Source: Holophagales bacterium
GTDB lineage: Bacteria > Acidobacteriota > Holophagae > Holophagales > Holophagaceae
Reading direction: 5' to 3'
DNA length: 20,168 nucleotides
NCBI GenBank assembly: GCA_031256155.1
Contig: JAIRRD010000003.1
Span: forward strand, 1-20,168
How positions within the stretch are numbered: position 1 is the stretch's first letter; each line of letters starts with the position of its first letter. A model generated the notes under the pieces. The model did no database searches and had not been told where the DNA came from. It saw only the letters and a list, made by a program, of their open reading frames with translations. Made by a program: the position numbers and the translations under genes. Positions 1,383 to 20,168 of this stretch are shown here, in pieces.

Positions 1383-1418
1383 TATAGCAGTTCAACTACA
1401 ATAAGTTGAACTGCTATA
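1383..1418 (-). repeat. Solo 36-bp palindrome, family A repeat unit
   Basis: Two perfect 15-base arms (TATAGCAGTTCAACT and its reverse complement) flank a six-base loop that reads ACAATA on the plus strand and TATTGT on the minus strand. The same TATTGT loop and similar arms form the 5' part of the long family A elements. It lies 13 bases after the dnaK stop. No T-run follows it on either strand, so it is not a canonical terminator, although it could block or protect transcript ends. The TA-ended, fully palindromic form suggests a minimal mobile unit. Confidence 0.85.
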
Positions 1419-1431
1419 ACGTCAACACGAC

Positions 1432-4189: not shown

Positions 4190-4225
4190 AATAGCGGTTC
4201 AACTACAATAACTCGAAGTGCTATA
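4190..4225 (-). repeat. Degenerate solo 36-bp palindrome, family A repeat unit
   Basis: The left arm TAGCGGTTCAACT (4192-4204) and loop ACAATA match the unit at 1383. The right arm ACTCGAAGTGCTA has about four mismatches or wobbles, so the hairpin is decaying. It sits ten bases before the yacG start, and its TA-rich right end forms a TATAAT box at 4222-4227. Confidence 0.7.
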
Positions 4226-4227
4226 AT
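4222..4227 (+). promoter_or_regulatory. TATAAT box created at the repeat end, upstream of yacG
   Basis: A perfect TATAAT spans the junction between the terminal CTATA of the repeat and the following bases, only eight bases before the yacG ATG. A weak TTCAAC lies 18 bases upstream inside the repeat. If used, yacG would be transcribed leaderless or with almost no leader. The -35 match is poor, so this is tentative. Confidence 0.3.
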
Positions 4228-5726: not shown

Positions 5727-5799
5727 TATAGTCGTTTTACTTGTGGAGCCTAACAATGCTCCACAAGTAAAATGTGTGGATGCGCCAGACTGCGCCGTA
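5727..5799 (+). repeat. Family B structured repeat, copy 1 (partial)
   Basis: It starts TATAGTCG and contains a perfect 15-base hairpin: TTTTACTTGTGGAGC (5735-5749), an eight-base loop, and its complement (5758-5772). The segment 5731-5799 matches 6305-6373 at 60 of 69 positions by my count. The match ends exactly where the CYTH stop codon begins (5800), so this copy lacks the 3' half seen in copy 2. No T-run follows the hairpin. Confidence 0.8.
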
Positions 5800-6300: not shown

Positions 6301-6463
6301 TGTAGTCGTTTTACTTGTAGAGCATAACAACGTTCCACAAGTAAAACGCGCGGATGCGTCAGACTGTGCCGTAATGGAGCGAACCGCCGACAGGCGGGGA
6401 GCGCTATGGGAGGCGTAGGCGATGCATACCCGGTTGTTACGGTTGTAAAGTGCATTCACTATA
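6301..6463 (+). mobile_element. Family B structured repeat, copy 2 (full length, MITE-like)
   Basis: It runs from TGTAGTCG (6301) to CACTATA (ending 6463), with imperfect inverted ends (about 10 of the outer 16 bases match). The 5' hairpin has a TTTTACTTGT arm (6309-6318) and an ACAAGTAAAA arm (6337-6346) with an eight-base loop. A CCGCC/GGCGG hairpin lies near 6386. The left 69 bases repeat the copy at 5731. No protein is encoded, so this is a non-autonomous element. Its right end overlaps the ubiD stop codon. Confidence 0.7.
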
Positions 6464-14523: not shown

Positions 14524-14559
14524 TATATCAATTCAACTTATTGTAGTTGAACTGCTACA
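14524..14559 (+). repeat. Solo 36-bp palindrome, family A repeat unit
   Basis: Arms TATATCAATTCAACT and AGTTGAACTGCTACA flank the loop TATTGT. The arms differ from the perfect unit at 1383 by three bases in total. It begins two bases after the kinase stop codon and lies 22 bases from a long family A copy. Confidence 0.75.
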
Positions 14560-14581
14560 ACTCACTCCTCTCAAACTCCCT

Positions 14582-14706
14582 TATAGCAATTTGCGCTTTC
14601 ATAGTCCATTTACGGCGAGCCAAGCCCGTCTATGGACTACGAGCGGCCGTGATTCGCAAGCGAATCCCGGCATAGCGGTTTAACTACAATAAGTTAAACC
14701 GCTATA
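14582..14706 (-). mobile_element. Family A structured repeat, full-length copy R1 (reverse orientation)
   Basis: A 125-bp element read on the minus strand from TATAGCGGTTTAACT (ending at 14706) to AAATTGCTATA (14582). Ends are inverted (TATAGCGGTTT versus TATAGCAATTT) and TA-flanked. In order it has three hairpins. H1 is the terminal 36-bp palindrome with loop TATTGT. H2 is GATTCGC-TT-GCGAATC inside GCCG/CGGC. H3 is an outer stem TAGTCCAT/ATGGACTA around GGCTCGCC. It differs from the copy at 20053 by about five bases over their shared length, so one of the two moved recently. It encodes no protein. Confidence 0.85.
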
Positions 14707-14781
14707 TCTATCATTGGCACAGAGGGCAACTTCCTGTAGCATCAATTACTGCACATCGCATTTTTGCGATCAGAGGGTTGA
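14707..14781 (+). other. Leader of the PLP-enzyme gene with small hairpin
   Basis: Between the repeat and the start at 14782, ATCGCA (14755-14760), a TTTT loop and TGCGAT (14765-14770) form a six-pair hairpin directly before the GAGGG ribosome site. I looked for SAM- or SAH-riboswitch cores, expected for a methionine-pathway gene, and saw none. Confidence 0.3.
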
Positions 14782-16047
14782 ATGCAGGAAAACCATGACA
14801 TAAAGCCGCAGACTTCTATTTTCAACGATGGCTATGACCCCAGGCGCTCCGATGGCGCAGTCATCCCCCCCCTTTTCCGCTCATCAACCTATCTTTTCAA
14901 TGATGCAGAGGAAGGTAAACGGGCATTTGAAATCGTTTACGGCATATCCCCCGCAAAAGAGGGCGAAACGCCGGCACCCATCTATTCCCGCGTCAGCAAC
15001 CCCACCTGCGAGATATTGGAAAAAAGAGCCATAGCATGGGATGGTGCCGAAGAAGCCGCTTTATTCTCAAGTGGCATGGGGGCCGTAACCAGCACCTGTC
15101 TGACTTTTTTAAAGTCAGGGGACACCATTTTATTTTGCGAACCCATTTATGGCGGCACCGAACATTTTTTCAACAACATACTGCCCCGTTTCAACATCAA
15201 TGCCAAATGCTTTCCAATTGGCGCAAAAACGGATGTCATTGATAACATAGTCAAGGACGACCCAACGATAAAGGCCATATACCTGGAATCTCCAGCAAAC
15301 CCAACAATGATGGTCTGCAACGTTCCCGGCACAGCGGAAATAGCTAAAAAGTATTCCACACCCGACAAAAGGATTCTGGTCATTGTTGACAATACCATGA
15401 TGGGCCCCATATTTTCCAGCCCACTTAAGCTGGGAGCTGACATTGTTTTGTATTCTGCAACAAAGTTCTTTGGTGGACATTCTGATCTTATCGCTGGCTT
15501 TTCCATGGGTAGCAGGGAACTGATAACCCAGATAAAGACATTCAGAACAATACTTGGTTCCAACTCTGACCCTGACACTGCGTGGCTTATCCACCGTTCC
15601 CTTAGCACTCTCCAGCTGAGGATGGAAAACCAGCAGAAGACAGCCGCCAGACTGGCCGAATTTCTCCTCACGCATCCTTCGGTAGAAAAAGTGGCCTATC
15701 CGGGTCTCCCCGGTATGGGTCAGTACCAGAATGAACTCCTGAAACAGCAGTTCACAGGCAGCGGTAGCTTGATATGTTTCTGCGTCAAAGGCGGGGAAGC
15801 AGAGGCATACCGCTTCCTCAACGCAGTTAAATGTATAAAGCTGGCCGTAAGCCTCGGAGGTACGACTTCCCTGGTAGAGCATCCATTCACCATGACGCAC
15901 TCAGACATGGCCGCAGAACAAAAACTTAAAGCAGGCATAACAGAAAACCTGATTCGCTTTAGTGTGGGACTTGAAGACACAGATGACCTCATAGCCGATC
16001 TGAGACAAGCACTCGAAAAAATTGCGTCCCCGGATAAAAATGGTTAA
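14782..16047 (+). CDS. Cystathionine gamma-synthase-family PLP enzyme (Cys/Met metabolism)
   Basis: A 421-residue fold-type I PLP enzyme of the Cys/Met metabolism family, which includes cystathionine gamma-synthase, O-acylhomoserine sulfhydrylase, cystathionine lyases and methionine gamma-lyase. Clear features are YSRVSNPT (68-75), the cofactor loop SSGMGAVTS (96-104), ESPANPTM (169-176), the metal-free PLP aspartate in VDNTM (202-206) and the Schiff-base lysine K228 in YSATKFFGGHSD. The loop YGGTEHF lacks the cysteine of true methionine gamma-lyases (YGCT), which argues for a biosynthetic or cystathionine-cleaving role. Downstream hom, lysC and asd supply homoserine, supporting methionine synthesis. 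GAGGG precedes the ATG. Codon use looks richer in C than its neighbours, and repeat elements flank it in opposite orientation, so separate acquisition is possible. Confidence 0.88.
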   Translation: MQENHDIKPQTSIFNDGYDPRRSDGAVIPPLFRSSTYLFNDAEEGKRAFEIVYGISPAKEGETPAPIYSRVSNPTCEILEKRAIAWDGAEEAALFSSGMGAVTSTCLTFLKSGDTILFCEPIYGGTEHFFNNILPRFNINAKCFPIGAKTDVIDNIVKDDPTIKAIYLESPANPTMMVCNVPGTAEIAKKYSTPDKRILVIVDNTMMGPIFSSPLKLGADIVLYSATKFFGGHSDLIAGFSMGSRELITQIKTFRTILGSNSDPDTAWLIHRSLSTLQLRMENQQKTAARLAEFLLTHPSVEKVAYPGLPGMGQYQNELLKQQFTGSGSLICFCVKGGEAEAYRFLNAVKCIKLAVSLGGTTSLVEHPFTMTHSDMAAEQKLKAGITENLIRFSVGLEDTDDLIADLRQALEKIASPDKNG

Positions 16048-16085
16048 AAGTTGTAAGCGCCTCAGTTTTGTTATATTACGTCAAA

Positions 16086-16213
16086 TAGAGCAGTTTAACT
16101 TTGAGAAGCTAAACTGCTCTAAGCTGGGGTTTGCTTGCAAATCACAGCTGCGTAGTGCTCTCAGGCAAGCTTTGCTTGCCGTAAAGAGAGCATCACAAGC
16201 GCAAAATGCTCTA
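16086..16213 (+). mobile_element. Family A structured repeat, full-length diverged copy R3, upstream of hom
   Basis: A 128-bp element from TAGAGCAGTTT to AAAATGCTCTA. The layout matches R1: terminal palindrome, GGTTTGC/GCAAATC hairpin inside GCTG/CAGC, then TGCTCTC/GAGAGCA around GGCAAGC/GCTTGCC, then AAGCG and the inverted end. Primary sequence is well diverged from R1, but the changes fall in matching pairs, so every helix is kept. It ends at 16213, where the AGGAG ribosome site of hom begins. Confidence 0.8.
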
Positions 16214-16224
16214 GGAGTAATGAT

Positions 16225-17481
16225 TTGATATATGTAGCTATTTTGGGTTATGGAGTTGTCGGTTCAGGTATTTGGCAAGTACTGGCGCAAAACCGTACAT
16301 ACATTGAAAGAAAAGCGAGTCAGCCCATTGAAGTCAAACGTGTACTGGATACACGCAAATTCCCGGGCAATCCTGTTGAAAAAGTTCTGACAAGTGATTA
16401 TGCGGATATTTTAAAAGATAAGGACATTCAAATTATTGCCGAAGCTATCGGCGGGCTTGAACCAGCATATTCCTATGTAAAGCAGGCATTACTGGCAAAT
16501 AAGCATGTTTGCACATCCAATAAGGAGCTTGTAATTAAGCATGGTGCCGAATTGCTGGCTCTTGCGAAGGAGCGCGGGCTGAATTTTATGTTTGAAGCCA
16601 GTGTTGGAGGCGGAATCCCGATTGTGCGGCCTATGAACTTATCTCTGACAACAGATGAGGTTATTGGTGTAGCAGGTATTTTGAACGGTACAACCAACTA
16701 CATCCTTACGCAAATGAGCATGGTTAATAAGAATTTTGAGGAAGCTCTGGCAGAAGCACAAGAACGCGGGTACGCGGAAAAAAATCCAACAGCAGATGTA
16801 GAAGGTTACGATAGTTGCCGCAAATTGGCTATTTTACTTTCACTTGCGATTGGCCGGCAGGTGAACTATGAAGCCATACATACCGAAGGCATCACAGCAC
16901 TAACTCAGGAAGACTTCGCTTTTGCGACGCATTTCGGATATGTGATAAAACTGATGGCGGATGGACGCATCACTTCTATGGGAATAGAAGCACTGACGGT
17001 ACCAATGTTGATTCACAGTAGCCATCCTTTGTCCATGGTGGCGGATGTATTCAATGGTGTGCTGGTGCAAGCCAGAATGACAGATAGTGTTATGTTCTTT
17101 GGCAGAGGCGCAGGAAAATTACCCACAGCCAGCGCAGTAGTCAGTGATATAGTGGACATCTCCAAACATCTGGATCAGCATATTGAGCATATCTGGTCAA
17201 CTGAATCGGCAATGCTTCTTCCATTGTCAAGCTACAGAAGGCAAAAAATGATTCGTGTATCCTTTAACGACAGAGAACGTGCCATGTCTCTCATCCAGGA
17301 ATACATGGAACCTGCTTCCATTGTTGAAATCTCGGAATATTCAGGTCAACTGGCCTGGTTATCGCAGTGTGAGCCGGAAAATAAAACCATTGAAAAACTG
17401 GCACGTTTGGCAGAAAGCAAGGTTTTTATTGGCGAACCGCGTATTCTGCGTATATTTGAGCCAACTAAATCAGATGAGTAG
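16225..17481 (+). CDS. hom: Homoserine dehydrogenase
   Basis: A 418-residue NAD(P)-dependent enzyme reducing aspartate semialdehyde to homoserine, the branch point to threonine and methionine. Seen are the Rossmann GxGxxG (G8, G10, G13), the TSNKE block with K100, EASVGGGIPIVRP (125-137), GILNGTTNYILT (151-162), and NPTADVEGYDSCRKLAIL with D191 and the catalytic K200. A C-terminal ACT-like regulatory region (about 350-410) suggests threonine feedback. The start is TTG (16225-16227), seven bases after AGGAG. An ATG-ATT-TGA triplet series (16220-16228) overlaps the TTG in another frame. The family A repeat forms its immediate leader, and a second copy separates it from lysC. Confidence 0.96.
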   Translation: MIYVAILGYGVVGSGIWQVLAQNRTYIERKASQPIEVKRVLDTRKFPGNPVEKVLTSDYADILKDKDIQIIAEAIGGLEPAYSYVKQALLANKHVCTSNKELVIKHGAELLALAKERGLNFMFEASVGGGIPIVRPMNLSLTTDEVIGVAGILNGTTNYILTQMSMVNKNFEEALAEAQERGYAEKNPTADVEGYDSCRKLAILLSLAIGRQVNYEAIHTEGITALTQEDFAFATHFGYVIKLMADGRITSMGIEALTVPMLIHSSHPLSMVADVFNGVLVQARMTDSVMFFGRGAGKLPTASAVVSDIVDISKHLDQHIEHIWSTESAMLLPLSSYRRQKMIRVSFNDRERAMSLIQEYMEPASIVEISEYSGQLAWLSQCEPENKTIEKLARLAESKVFIGEPRILRIFEPTKSDE

Positions 17482-17524
17482 CCAAGTCATTTCAGAGTGC
17501 CTTATGTATTGCGTATGGAACCGC

Positions 17525-17640
17525 TATAGATTGGATAATGCAGCAGTTCAACTTATTGTAGTTGAACCGAAATGTCAGTATTTGTTTGCAGGCGGGCTTT
17601 GTCTGCCGTTAAGCGAGCAATACAAGCGAAAATAGCTATA
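17525..17640 (+). mobile_element. Family A structured repeat, rearranged copy R4, between hom and lysC
   Basis: The H1 palindrome (arms 17539-17553 and 17560-17574, loop TATTGT) is recognisable but decayed on its right arm. H2 is missing. H3 is kept as GGCGGGC/GTCTGCC inside GTATTTG/AGCAATAC, followed by AAGCG and the end AAAATAGCTATA. TATAGATT at 17525 is the best 5' terminus. An extra AACCGCTATA just before it looks like the right end of an older copy, so nested insertion is possible. The element stops one base before the GGGGG ribosome site of lysC. Confidence 0.65.
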
Positions 17641-17653
17641 TGGGGGTCATAAT

Positions 17654-18886
17654 TTGCTGATTGTACAGAAATACGGCGGTTCATCGGTTGCCAATGCAGA
17701 CAAAATTGTAAATGTAGCCAAACGCATTACAAACACTTTCAAAAAAGGGAATAAGGTGGTTGTAGTACTATCAGCGCAGGGTGACGTAACGGATGAACTA
17801 TTAGCTAAGGCAGCTGAAATCAATCATGAAGCCAGCAAGAGAGAGTTGGACATGCTACTCTCCACAGGTGAGCAGCAGTCAGCAGCACTTATGGCAATAG
17901 CTATTCACAAAGAGGGGTATCCGGCTATTTCGCTCAATGCTTCACAGGTAGGCATCCACGCTACTCGCAAGTATGGTAATGCACGTATAAAAAATATAGA
18001 AACCGAGCGCATTACAGCGGAACTTGAACGCAACAATATAGTTATCGTCGCAGGGTTTCAGGGTGTCAATCGTTATGGAGACATCACCACTTTGGGACGC
18101 GGCGCATCAGATACAACGGCTGTTGCGCTTGCTGCGGTATTAGGGGCAGCTTTATGTGAGATATACACAGATGTGGATGGGGTATACACTGCCGATCCAC
18201 GCATAGTGAAAAATGCAAAAAAAATAGATGTTATAGGCTTTGATGAAATGCTGCATCTGGCTTCGCTGGGTGCTTGCGTACTACACAACCGAGCCGTAGA
18301 AATGGCTCAGCGGTACCGAGTGAAATTGGTACTGCGTTCAAGCCTCTCAGATGCAGACGGTACGTTGATTAAGGAGGAATCTAAAGTGGAAAAAGTATAT
18401 GTCAGTGGGCTGGCTGTAGATAAAGACATTGCGCGTGTTTCAGTTATAGGTATTTTTGACCGTCCAGGAATGGCATATCAGATATTCTCATTAATGGCAC
18501 GGGAAAAAATTTCGATAGATTTGATTTTGCAGGCTATTAACAGTAACACAACCAAAGACATAACTTTTACAGTGCCAAAGAGCGATCTGAAAACCACATT
18601 GTCTTTGCTGGAAGCCAACCGCAGCATAATTGGCTTTGAAGCACTCAGTTATGATGACAAAGTAGCCAAACTGTCCGCAGTAGGCGCAGGCATGGCATCC
18701 AACTACGGCATAGCCTCCACAATGTTTGAAGCCCTGTACGACTGCGATGTCAATATTATAATGATTACTACTTCAGAGATAAAAATTTCCGTACTGATAG
18801 CCGAGTGTGATGCCGACAAAGCTGTCAACGCAGTGCATGAAAAATATATGCAAATGTCGCACTTCGGAACACCAAACAAACTTTAA
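17654..18886 (+). CDS. lysC: Aspartokinase
   Basis: A 410-residue aspartate kinase, the first step of the lysine, threonine and methionine pathway. The kinase domain has KYGGSSV (6-12), LSTGEQ (69-74), FQGV (135-138), TTLGRGASDTTAVALAA (145-161; relatives mostly have GRGGSD) and YTDVDGVYTADPR (171-183). Two ACT domains follow: about 262-335 (VIGIFDRPGMAYQIFSLM) and about 340-405 (LSAVGAGMASNYG), the feedback site for lysine and/or threonine. The start is TTG (17654-17656), seven bases after GGGGG. The single-domain length matches the monofunctional alpha-subunit type, and an in-frame internal start with a strong ribosome site could give a separate beta subunit. It lies 172 bases after hom and 19 before asd. 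Confidence 0.96.
   Translation: MLIVQKYGGSSVANADKIVNVAKRITNTFKKGNKVVVVLSAQGDVTDELLAKAAEINHEASKRELDMLLSTGEQQSAALMAIAIHKEGYPAISLNASQVGIHATRKYGNARIKNIETERITAELERNNIVIVAGFQGVNRYGDITTLGRGASDTTAVALAAVLGAALCEIYTDVDGVYTADPRIVKNAKKIDVIGFDEMLHLASLGACVLHNRAVEMAQRYRVKLVLRSSLSDADGTLIKEESKVEKVYVSGLAVDKDIARVSVIGIFDRPGMAYQIFSLMAREKISIDLILQAINSNTTKDITFTVPKSDLKTTLSLLEANRSIIGFEALSYDDKVAKLSAVGAGMASNYGIASTMFEALYDCDVNIIMITTSEIKISVLIAECDADKAVNAVHEKYMQMSHFGTPNKL
18371..18886 (+). promoter_or_regulatory. Internal ribosome site and GTG start for an aspartokinase beta subunit (start at 18386)
   Basis: Inside lysC, AAGGAGG (18371-18377) lies eight bases before an in-frame GTG (18386-18388, codon 245). Translation from there would give a 166-residue protein holding both ACT domains. 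This is the best Shine-Dalgarno in the whole operon. From memory, Bacillus subtilis lysC makes its beta subunit from an internal start at nearly the same codon. Whether it is used here is inference. Confidence 0.6.
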
Positions 18887-18905
18887 TGTATAGATGGGAT
18901 AGAAT

Positions 18906-19892
18906 ATGAAATCATTCAGATGTGCCATAGTAGGTGCTACAGGTATGGTTGGCCGCATGTTTGCACAAATACTTTGCGAACGAAAACTACCCATTGAAAA
19001 ACTCTACTTGTTTGCGTCCGCACGTTCCACCGGACAAACCATAGAATTTGAAGGACGTGAATTGGTCATAGAGGAACTGACACCCGATGTATTTGACAGA
19101 GGTATAGATGTCGCGTTGTTTGCCGTAGAAAATGATTTCAGCAAAAAATATGCGCCCATAGCTGTCAAAAAAGGCTGCATTGTAGTGGACAATAGCTCTG
19201 CATGGCGCATGAATCCTGATGTGCCGCTTGTGGTGCCTGAGGTGAACAGAGATGACATAGCATTGCATAAAGGAATCATTGCCAACCCAAACTGTTGTGC
19301 CGTTCCGGCTGTGGTAGCTCTCAATCCGTTACATAAAAAATTTGGTGTAAAACGAGTTGTCTTTTCCACATACCAGTCCGTTTCCGGTGCTGGCGCGAAT
19401 GGGTGGCAGGACTTAACAGATACCCTGGCAGGACAGCCACCCAAACATTTTCCATATACCATTGCCCACAATGTAATTCCGCATATTGACCGATTTGGGG
19501 ATGACGGTTACACCGGCGAAGAAAAAAAACTCATTGCGGAAATAGGCAAAATACTTCACGCGCCCCGCATAAAAGCCACAGCAACAACAGTTCGCGTACC
19601 GGTTTACACAGGTCATAGCCTGTCTGTTAATATCAGCCTGGAAAAATCCTTCGACTTGTCCGAAGTGCGTAACCTGCTTGATACCGCACCAGGTGCTGTA
19701 CTGATGGATGATCCGGCAAACAATATCTATCCAATACCAACCATAGCTGCGGGTACGGATTTGGTATATATCGGACGCATCCGGCGAGATGATAGTTTTG
19801 AAAACAGTTTGAATATCTGGGTTGTAGCTGACAACGTGCGTAAAGGTGCAGCAACCAATGCTGTACAAATTGCGGAACTGGCACTGTTTTAA
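18906..19892 (+). CDS. asd: Aspartate-semialdehyde dehydrogenase
   Basis: A 328-residue enzyme that reduces aspartyl phosphate, the lysC product, to aspartate semialdehyde, used by hom and by the lysine/diaminopimelate branch. The N-terminal nucleotide motif is VGATGMVGRMF (9-19), with SARSTGQ (38-44), VVDNSSAWRM (93-102), the catalytic NPNCCAVP with C130, the substrate segment STYQSVSGAGANGW (about 154-167), and RVPVYTGHS later. The residue after the catalytic cysteine is a second cysteine (C131), where serine is common. The ribosome site (GGGA) is weak. It lies 19 bases after lysC, and its TAA overlaps the ATG of the broken MFS gene by one base. Confidence 0.96.
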   Translation: MKSFRCAIVGATGMVGRMFAQILCERKLPIEKLYLFASARSTGQTIEFEGRELVIEELTPDVFDRGIDVALFAVENDFSKKYAPIAVKKGCIVVDNSSAWRMNPDVPLVVPEVNRDDIALHKGIIANPNCCAVPAVVALNPLHKKFGVKRVVFSTYQSVSGAGANGWQDLTDTLAGQPPKHFPYTIAHNVIPHIDRFGDDGYTGEEKKLIAEIGKILHAPRIKATATTVRVPVYTGHSLSVNISLEKSFDLSEVRNLLDTAPGAVLMDDPANNIYPIPTIAAGTDLVYIGRIRRDDSFENSLNIWVVADNVRKGAATNAVQIAELALF

Positions 19893-20065
19893 TGAATAAT
19901 TTGAAAAAAGAGTTTGCCACTATTTACGCAGGACAGGCGTTTTCCCTTTTGGGTTCGTCCGTTGTGCAGTTTGCTGTTATCTGGTGGCTGACAATACAGA
20001 CGGAATCCGCCATTGTACTCACATTGGTTACCCTTGTTGCTTTTATACCGAATATAGCGGTTTAA
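19892..20065 (+). pseudogene. MFS transporter gene, interrupted by a repeat element
   Basis: The frame opens with ATG overlapping the asd stop (TAATG), which suggests translational coupling. It encodes the first helix and a half of a major-facilitator protein: KKEFATIYAGQAFSLLGSSV, then VQFAVIWWLT, then IVLTLVTLVAFIPN. This is the typical N-terminus of MFS_3-type exporters, in which FIPx is normally followed by an LGPxAG loop. Here the reading passes at 20053 into a family A element and stops at TAA (20063-20065) after 57 codons. About 54 codons are native. The rest of the gene may resume beyond the window. As it stands, a functional carrier of about 400 residues cannot be made from this frame. 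Confidence 0.85.
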
Positions 20066-20168
20066 CTTATTGTAGTCAAACCGCTATGCCGGGATTCGCT
20101 TGCGAATCACGGCCGCTCATAGTCCATAGGCGAGCTTGGCTCGCCGTAAATGGACTATGAAAGCGAAA
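20053..20168 (+). mobile_element. Family A structured repeat, copy R2, inserted in the MFS gene (cut by the window edge)
   Basis: It starts TATAGCGGTTTAACT and carries the complete three-hairpin series: H1 with loop TATTGT, H2 GATTCGC/GCGAATC, and H3 TAGTCCAT/ATGGACTA around a perfect GGCGAGC-TTG-GCTCGCC. It reaches AAGCGAAA at the window end. Only the last few bases, expected to end in CTATA, are missing. It is nearly identical to R1 on the opposite strand, and its H3 inner hairpin is the best preserved of all copies, so it may be the youngest. Confidence 0.88.

Follow-up and report, generated by a model that had tools for sequence, protein, structure and literature searches.

The window analysed here is a stretch of 20,168 nucleotides (nt), positions 1 to 20,168 of the forward strand of contig JAIRRD010000003.1 from a Holophagales bacterium (GenBank assembly GCA_031256155.1). 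It contains four long copies of a hairpin-rich repeat, which had been noticed in an earlier sequence-only reading and likened there to the Correia elements of Neisseria. We concluded that these repeats very probably form a family of non-autonomous DNA transposons, i.e. miniature inverted-repeat transposable elements (MITEs), in one genus of Holophagaceae, and that they are moved in trans by IS630 (Tc1/mariner) transposases. The conclusion is based on the high copy number, on insertion at TA and on a left end shared with an IS630 insertion sequence (IS) of the genus. The transposase would recognise the terminal TATAGC (or TAGAGC) inverted repeats, excise the element and insert it at a TA, which would be duplicated. 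Such cut and paste by the closest type of transposase is proposed by analogy with ISY100, for which cut and paste with TA duplication was shown in vitro (PMC2170065, in the part of the article available). The family may have been active recently.

Copy number, distribution and insertion at TA

In the window's draft genome (G000; 1,624,342 bases in 288 contigs, 69% complete) the element is 125-128 bp long, below the limit of about 200 bp used for bacterial MITEs, and carries no gene-length open frame, as expected from its earlier description as protein-free. The left part is a 36-bp palindrome that opens and closes with the terminal repeat (TATAGCGGTTTAAC...GTTAAACCGCTAT); it is followed by a small hairpin, a long nested hairpin, the motif AAGCG and an unpaired right end (..AAATTGCTATA). 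The terminal inverted repeats (TIRs) are about 11 bp long and imperfect, with TATAGC at both ends in one subfamily and TAGAGC at both ends in the other, so that copies of the second subfamily in the same genome begin with TAGAGC and end with GCTCTA. The two end types of a single copy mostly agree, and hybrid copies exist (L108, left TAGAGC and right GCTATA; L112, left TATAGC and right GCTCTG). Two copies in the genus genome G003 (L269 and L270) span 186-188 bp from an initial TAGAGCGATTCAACTTTGA to a final CTCAAAATTGAATTGCTATA or ..GCTCTA, and have a longer right end. In the consensus fold the left TIR finds its pairing partner inside its own palindrome, and the right TIR has none. What is unusual in this build is that the left end forms a 36-bp palindrome by itself, and this palindrome also occurs without the rest of the element.

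A covariance model (R1) was built from 33 copies and searched against G000, with 150 of the 1322 first-look candidates scored. It gave 146 matches at the cut-off of E<=1e-3, about one match per 11 kb of the 1.62 Mb draft, and all four places of the long window copies were among the places matched. The expectation of a high-copy family with further copies in the genome was thus borne out. The figure of 146 may be too low because it is close to the number of candidates scored; 35 matches reach a contig end within one base and two more within 6 bases (hand list), and since two contig-end matches may be one physical copy, the true copy number is uncertain in both directions. R1 matches were found in 4 of 77 Holophagaceae genomes, namely all four available for the genus and none of the 73 others (stricter filters, <=45 candidates per genome). 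A draw of 396 genomes of the phylum gave two with matches, both of the genus (G000 and G003; stricter filters, <=8 candidates per genome). The element had no match in phage records or plasmid records, and viral contigs searched with an exact pattern gave none either. The host genus is placed in Holophagaceae, Acidobacteriota, which does not agree with the description of the neighbouring genes as deltaproteobacterial in type. Its member G001 is the metagenome-assembled genome 'Holophagaceae bacterium isolate Nt197P3bin133'; according to PMC7024585, Nt197 denotes the termite Neocapritermes taracua, a humus feeder, and we infer a termite-gut origin for G000 itself.

For the empty-site analysis, the 45-nt flanks of 51 copies with both flanks present were joined by one TA and searched across the available loci. 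Fifteen joined flanks match elsewhere across the junction. Eleven of these matches are gap-free, and 10 of the 11 have one or more paralogs with TA: five long cases, one short and four weak. The long cases are L003 (65 nt; a TAGAGC copy that sits within a TATAGC copy; TA in 100/103 paralogs), L025 (87 nt; inside an older copy of the family; TA in 25/54, the rest TG), L030 (74 nt; TA in 22/24), L099 (79 nt; TA in 31/65, the rest AA or GA) and L100 (48 nt; TA in 4/4), and the short one is L031 (35 nt; TA in 2/2), where paralog counts include overlapping loci that are not independent places. At the hom-lysC junction the frames are separated by 172 bases holding the 17539 copy; in the genus genome G002 the same frames overlap and leave no room for a copy. 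The predicted insertion at TA is therefore supported by paralogous empty sites with a single TA, and the copies are not confined to orthologous positions, given these sites and the absence of the hom-lysC copy from G002.

With <=1 mismatch allowed, the palindrome pattern occurs at 58 places in G000, some of them the left parts of long copies, compared with 0 for the reversed-pattern control, which excludes chance. Among the 18 exact palindrome matches listed in G000, 13 are clear of R1 matches, four lie within long copies and one (contig C29) overlaps an R1 match by 2 bases. The left palindrome carries a pair of TIRs in opposite orientation, and the existence of lone 36-bp copies suggests that it may also be mobile by itself. 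Among 29 deduplicated lone palindromes from more than one genus genome, taken as candidate independent insertions, there was no convincing empty site, and movement of their own is therefore unproven.

The IS630 partner and related mobile elements

DDE_3 (IS630) matches are present in all four genus genomes. In the closest IS630 type, 14-17 nt lie between the stop of the transposase frame and the outer edge of the right, TATAGC end, as measured in five copies (L040 in G000, L079 and L081 in G001, L059 in G002 and L071 in G003); the right end in G000 (L040), read inward, is TATAGCAATTCAATTTATTGTAGT. The left MITE ends (G000 TATAGC, G001 and G002) were compared with ten ends of this IS630 type and agree at 17-23 of 25 nt, with best matches of 22 (G000), 23 (G001) and 23 (G002); against another IS630, L051, the same ends agree at only 13-16 of 25 nt. 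If the general TATAGC signature is excluded, nt 9 to 25 agree at 11-16 of 17 positions with the closest IS630 type vs. 5-8 with L051. Among 100,000 random window 17-mers compared with the G001 end, 17 reach >=15 matches and presumably represent the element's own copies. The partner's left end is present in L251 and L081. L081 (G001), 303 bp long, is an IS that has lost internal sequence and kept both ends, an intermediate of the kind to be expected. TAGAGC-ended IS630 relatives exist outside the genus. The transposase has 1375 relatives in public data at E<=1e-10 among 1874 candidates; one of the best 120 of these (P0062, 311 aa) also has helix-turn-helix domains. Of the full-length IS with the same ends that the sequence-only reading had proposed to look for, an IS630-type transposase with a matching left end was found.

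Several observations weigh against the assignment to IS630. The right MITE ends match the ends of the closest IS630 type weakly, at 10-19 of 25 nt (10-15 for L051). Left ends of TAGAGC copies match IS630 ends at best at 19 (G000) and 18 (G003) of 25 nt, and no TAGAGC-type end of the element family was found in any DDE_3 locus of the genus. A complete transposon of the matching type was not recovered from the genus, where only fragments and contig-edge pieces were found (G000 being a 69% complete draft): in G000 itself DDE_3 is represented by two pieces, with open frames of 102 and 69 aa, and the closest transposase type by two matches, all fragments, and the N-terminal part of the transposase used as query in the four genus genomes gave one left end (L251) and no complete copy. 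Among the empty sites, all 33 gap-free paralogs of the candidate L291 show CA or CG at the junction (TA in 0/33), four further gap-free cases are the weak ones noted above, and about half of the L025 and L099 paralogs carry another junction dinucleotide. No movement was observed among the genomes compared.

The hairpins would also fit an element of the REP/RAYT kind, copied by a Y1 (IS200/IS605-like) transposase via single-strand hairpins, as the stable hairpins lie on one strand and a TnpB-like frame was recognised by eye in L040. The element has inverted ends and TA empty sites, which Y1 transposition is not known to produce, and its end matches an IS630 end; we consider a Y1-copied element very improbable and rejected it.

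Known elements are described below from the available parts of the papers cited, and the element is likened to RUP, Nezha and Correia by description. The nearest case known to us by its working is RUP with IS630-Spn1. RUP is 107 bp long, encodes no protein, is inserted at TA and occurs in 108-110 copies; its TIRs resemble those of a resident IS630, and IS630-Spn1 was proposed as the mover (PMC2229807, PMC3049150). Size, copy number, TA insertion and IS630-like TIRs are similar in the Holophagaceae element, which belongs to another phylum and differs in its fold: the two TIRs of RUP pair with each other (PMC3049150), whereas here the left TIR is self-paired and the right one unpaired. Nezha of cyanobacteria is likewise a MITE tied to a resident IS by its TIRs, in another host; an ISNpu3-like IS was proposed as its mover from TIR similarity (PMC3049150). 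CIR of Caulobacter and Brucella has TA at its ends, and its 5' and 3' parts form separate stem-loops instead of pairing end to end, a likeness to our element; it differs in its GANTC motif and in having no TIR tabulated, and no IS partner is named for it (PMC2229807). ISY100 (IS630 family, Synechocystis), with TIRs of 24 bp (PMC2170065), serves as a model of the mechanism by its TIRs and TA duplication; it is autonomous and is not the partner of the Holophagaceae element. In the MITEs reviewed in PMC2229807, both ends pair with each other as a rule. The self-folded left end is a difference in build, not in kind, from RUP and the reviewed MITEs, and the element was therefore filed as a new family of IS630-driven MITEs.

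The ends of Correia elements are of the TATAG type. Correia/NEMIS elements have TA at their ends and a target duplication, occur in forms of about 107 and 155 bp and in over 120 copies (PMC2229807, PMC10969869). They have a 24-bp TIR paired end to end; promoters, a site for integration host factor (IHF) and RNase III cutting have been reported for them. The proposed likeness to Correia holds for the TATAG-type end and for three features that RUP has as well (TA insertion, size and the absence of a transposase gene); it does not extend to the fold, where the left end of the Holophagaceae element is self-paired instead of being joined to the right end, and the hosts differ. A true Correia/NEMIS element transferred from Neisseria would explain the TATAG-type ends, the TA insertion and the similar size. 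Among the genomes searched, all of them from Acidobacteriota, however, the element is found in a single Holophagaceae genus and has diverged into subfamilies there, phage and plasmid records gave no match, and the ends follow the local IS630. Membership in Correia is disfavoured, and a transfer from Neisseria appears extremely improbable.

Other small repeats were observed beside these elements. A second MITE-like family of about 123-140 bp is present in G000 (L012 1634-1773, L031 1633-1772, L003 2933-3072 and L117 382-504), with left ends TATAGCGGTTC.. and right ends ..GGGAAT(T/G)GCTATA; at its left end L012 agrees with the right end of L051, the other IS630 (G001; about 1 kb, both ends present), at 20 of 25 nt. 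Palindromes of the TATAGC..GGAAC..GCTATA type, about 52-55 bp long (TATAGCGGTTCCAT.. and similar; L039 274-328 and L040 1593-1644), possibly form a third type of mini-element. The TnpB-like open frame occupies L040 1-807, beside the IS630 remnant of G000.

Conservation of the hairpin core

Next, we examined pairing in the 33-copy alignment, from which the structure itself had been derived; the shuffle control ignores relatedness of the copies. Standard pairs make up 97.4% of 1186 cells (shuffles, 85.1%), and 21 of the 36 pairs show two-sided change, with 199 double-change cells vs. 55.9 in shuffles. The covariation score is 0.48 vs. 0.24 in shuffles, and 0/500 shuffles are as high; shifting the structure by 1 to 3 columns lowers pairing to 30-43% of cells. 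Further pair types are not above shuffles (41 vs. 44.4; 500/500 shuffles as high). Comparison of the lineage consensuses shows two-sided differences at 7-14 of the 36 pairs and one-sided ones at 1-4, so that the arms have changed with pairing kept. A second set of 43 complete copies of the main subfamily (37 begin with TATAGC and 39 end with GCTATA; 36 cut ones were set aside) was used for one-sided stem changes, and gave 36 G-U vs. 32 A-C cells (14 vs. 16 distinct) with no strand preference; in the 33-copy set G-U is weakly ahead (18 vs. 10 distinct). Stem positions of the 43 copies vary less than others, with 119 changes at 90 positions vs. 106 at 35 positions elsewhere.

These figures bear on the possibility that the host selects the three-hairpin core for a function in cis, as an RNA or a regulatory module (a leader, a terminator or a processing site), and that mobility is no more than its way of spreading. 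The pairing, double changes and covariation in the alignment and the two-sided differences between lineages favour such a module. So does a ribosome-binding-like sequence that abuts 16/116 right ends vs. 4/112 left ends (p 0.009); such a sequence with a start codon behind it was found in 20 right vs. 10 left flanks (p 0.08). Both comparisons are post hoc tests on flanks pooled from G000 to G003, which include nested copies and repeats resembling ribosome-binding sites. In the 43 copies, however, A-C is about as frequent as G-U, as expected for change at the DNA level, and further pair types do not exceed shuffles. Promoters (13 vs. 10.6) and terminators (6 vs. 5.7) show no excess in the region, one promoter-like site (10/12) overlapping the 20053 copy. 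An Rfam scan of the window at gathering thresholds gave one tRNA and nothing else, with no family at threshold in the element region. We regard a host-selected cis RNA as unlikely.

The hybrids L108 and L112 of one genome and the 186-188-bp form of G003 would point to one fold being carried between TATAGC and TAGAGC ends. We tentatively suggest that the core might be a selected mobile module with exchangeable ends, acting either as DNA (cruciform or transposase-accessory site, or arm-to-arm copying) or as leader RNA before ribosome-binding sites. The core may have been kept because source copies carrying it spread better, or the palindrome arms may have been copied from each other.

Copies in the window and meaning of the family

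The element copies in the window are listed in Table 1. Of the four intervals first given for the long copies, 14582-14706, 16086-16213 and 20053 to the edge were recovered, and the start at 17525 was moved to 17539 by the model. The layout ascribed to all four does not apply to the 16086 copy with respect to TATAG ends, the loop TATTGT and CTATA, as this copy has TAGAGC/GCTCTA ends and a different loop. Three of the four copies fold far below dinucleotide shuffles (z -4.8, -7.4 and -7.9, with 0/200 shuffles equal for each; -7.4 is the 14582 copy); the fold of the 17525 copy is unremarkable against its shuffles (z -1.8, 11/200 as good). The 14582 copy sits between an APH-family gene and a gene for a Cys/Met-metabolism pyridoxal phosphate (PLP) enzyme (Pfam). 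The right edge of the 16086 copy directly abuts GGAG upstream of the homoserine dehydrogenase frame.

Table 1. Element copies, parts of one copy and lone palindromes in the window.
Feature	Position	Strand	Basis
Full-length copy, TATAGC subfamily	14582..14706	-	R1 covariance model match, 142.6 bits
Full-length copy, TAGAGC subfamily	16086..16213	+	R1 match, 129.5 bits; close copies elsewhere in genome
Hairpin 1, left-end palindrome (left TIR + own inverted repeat)	16086..16121	+	Fold; pair counts
Hairpin 2	16122..16149	+	Fold; pair counts
Hairpin 3, long nested stem	16150..16202	+	Fold; 11/13 outer pairs with two-sided change
Right end, unpaired, contains right TIR	16203..16213	+	Sequence
Decayed copy, flanked by genes for homoserine dehydrogenase and aspartate kinase	17539..17640	+	R1 match, 63.8 bits
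Copy truncated at contig end, within open frame starting at 19892	20053..20168	+	R1 match, 122.2 bits
Lone 36-bp left-end palindrome	about 1383-1419	.	Repeat comparison and palindrome pattern search
Lone left-end palindrome, decayed	4191..4226	.	Repeat comparison
Lone left-end palindrome, decayed, adjoining 14582 copy	14525..14560	.	Repeat comparison

The open frame 19892-20062 encodes a hydrophobic product of 57 aa directly after the aspartate-semialdehyde dehydrogenase gene and is terminated by the 20053 copy; by eye it is the start of a membrane protein, and it has no Pfam match. A second repeated palindrome (TAGTCGTTTTACTTGTGGAGC..) with a tail has two window copies, at 5729-5799 and 6303-6373, and at other places in the genome MITE insertions lie within or next to similar sequence (L099, L304).

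The element family looks unreported, as had been suggested, and is of a kind already known. It was named in no title or abstract beginning found in the literature searched, with ISfinder and most subscription papers outside the search. The main text of PMC10969869 has 0 occurrences of 'acidobacteri', and in the available text PMC8841776 mentions MITEs only in its reference list and PMC7024585 has 0 occurrences of 'repeat'. Given its density in this draft, about one match per 11 kb, and the 35 matches that coincide with contig ends, the element probably helps break such assemblies. The finding adds a family from Holophagaceae (Acidobacteriota) to the IS630-driven MITEs. The deep covariation in a non-coding mobile element makes it a clean case for asking whether MITE hairpins are selected as RNA, selected as DNA or kept by arm-to-arm correction.

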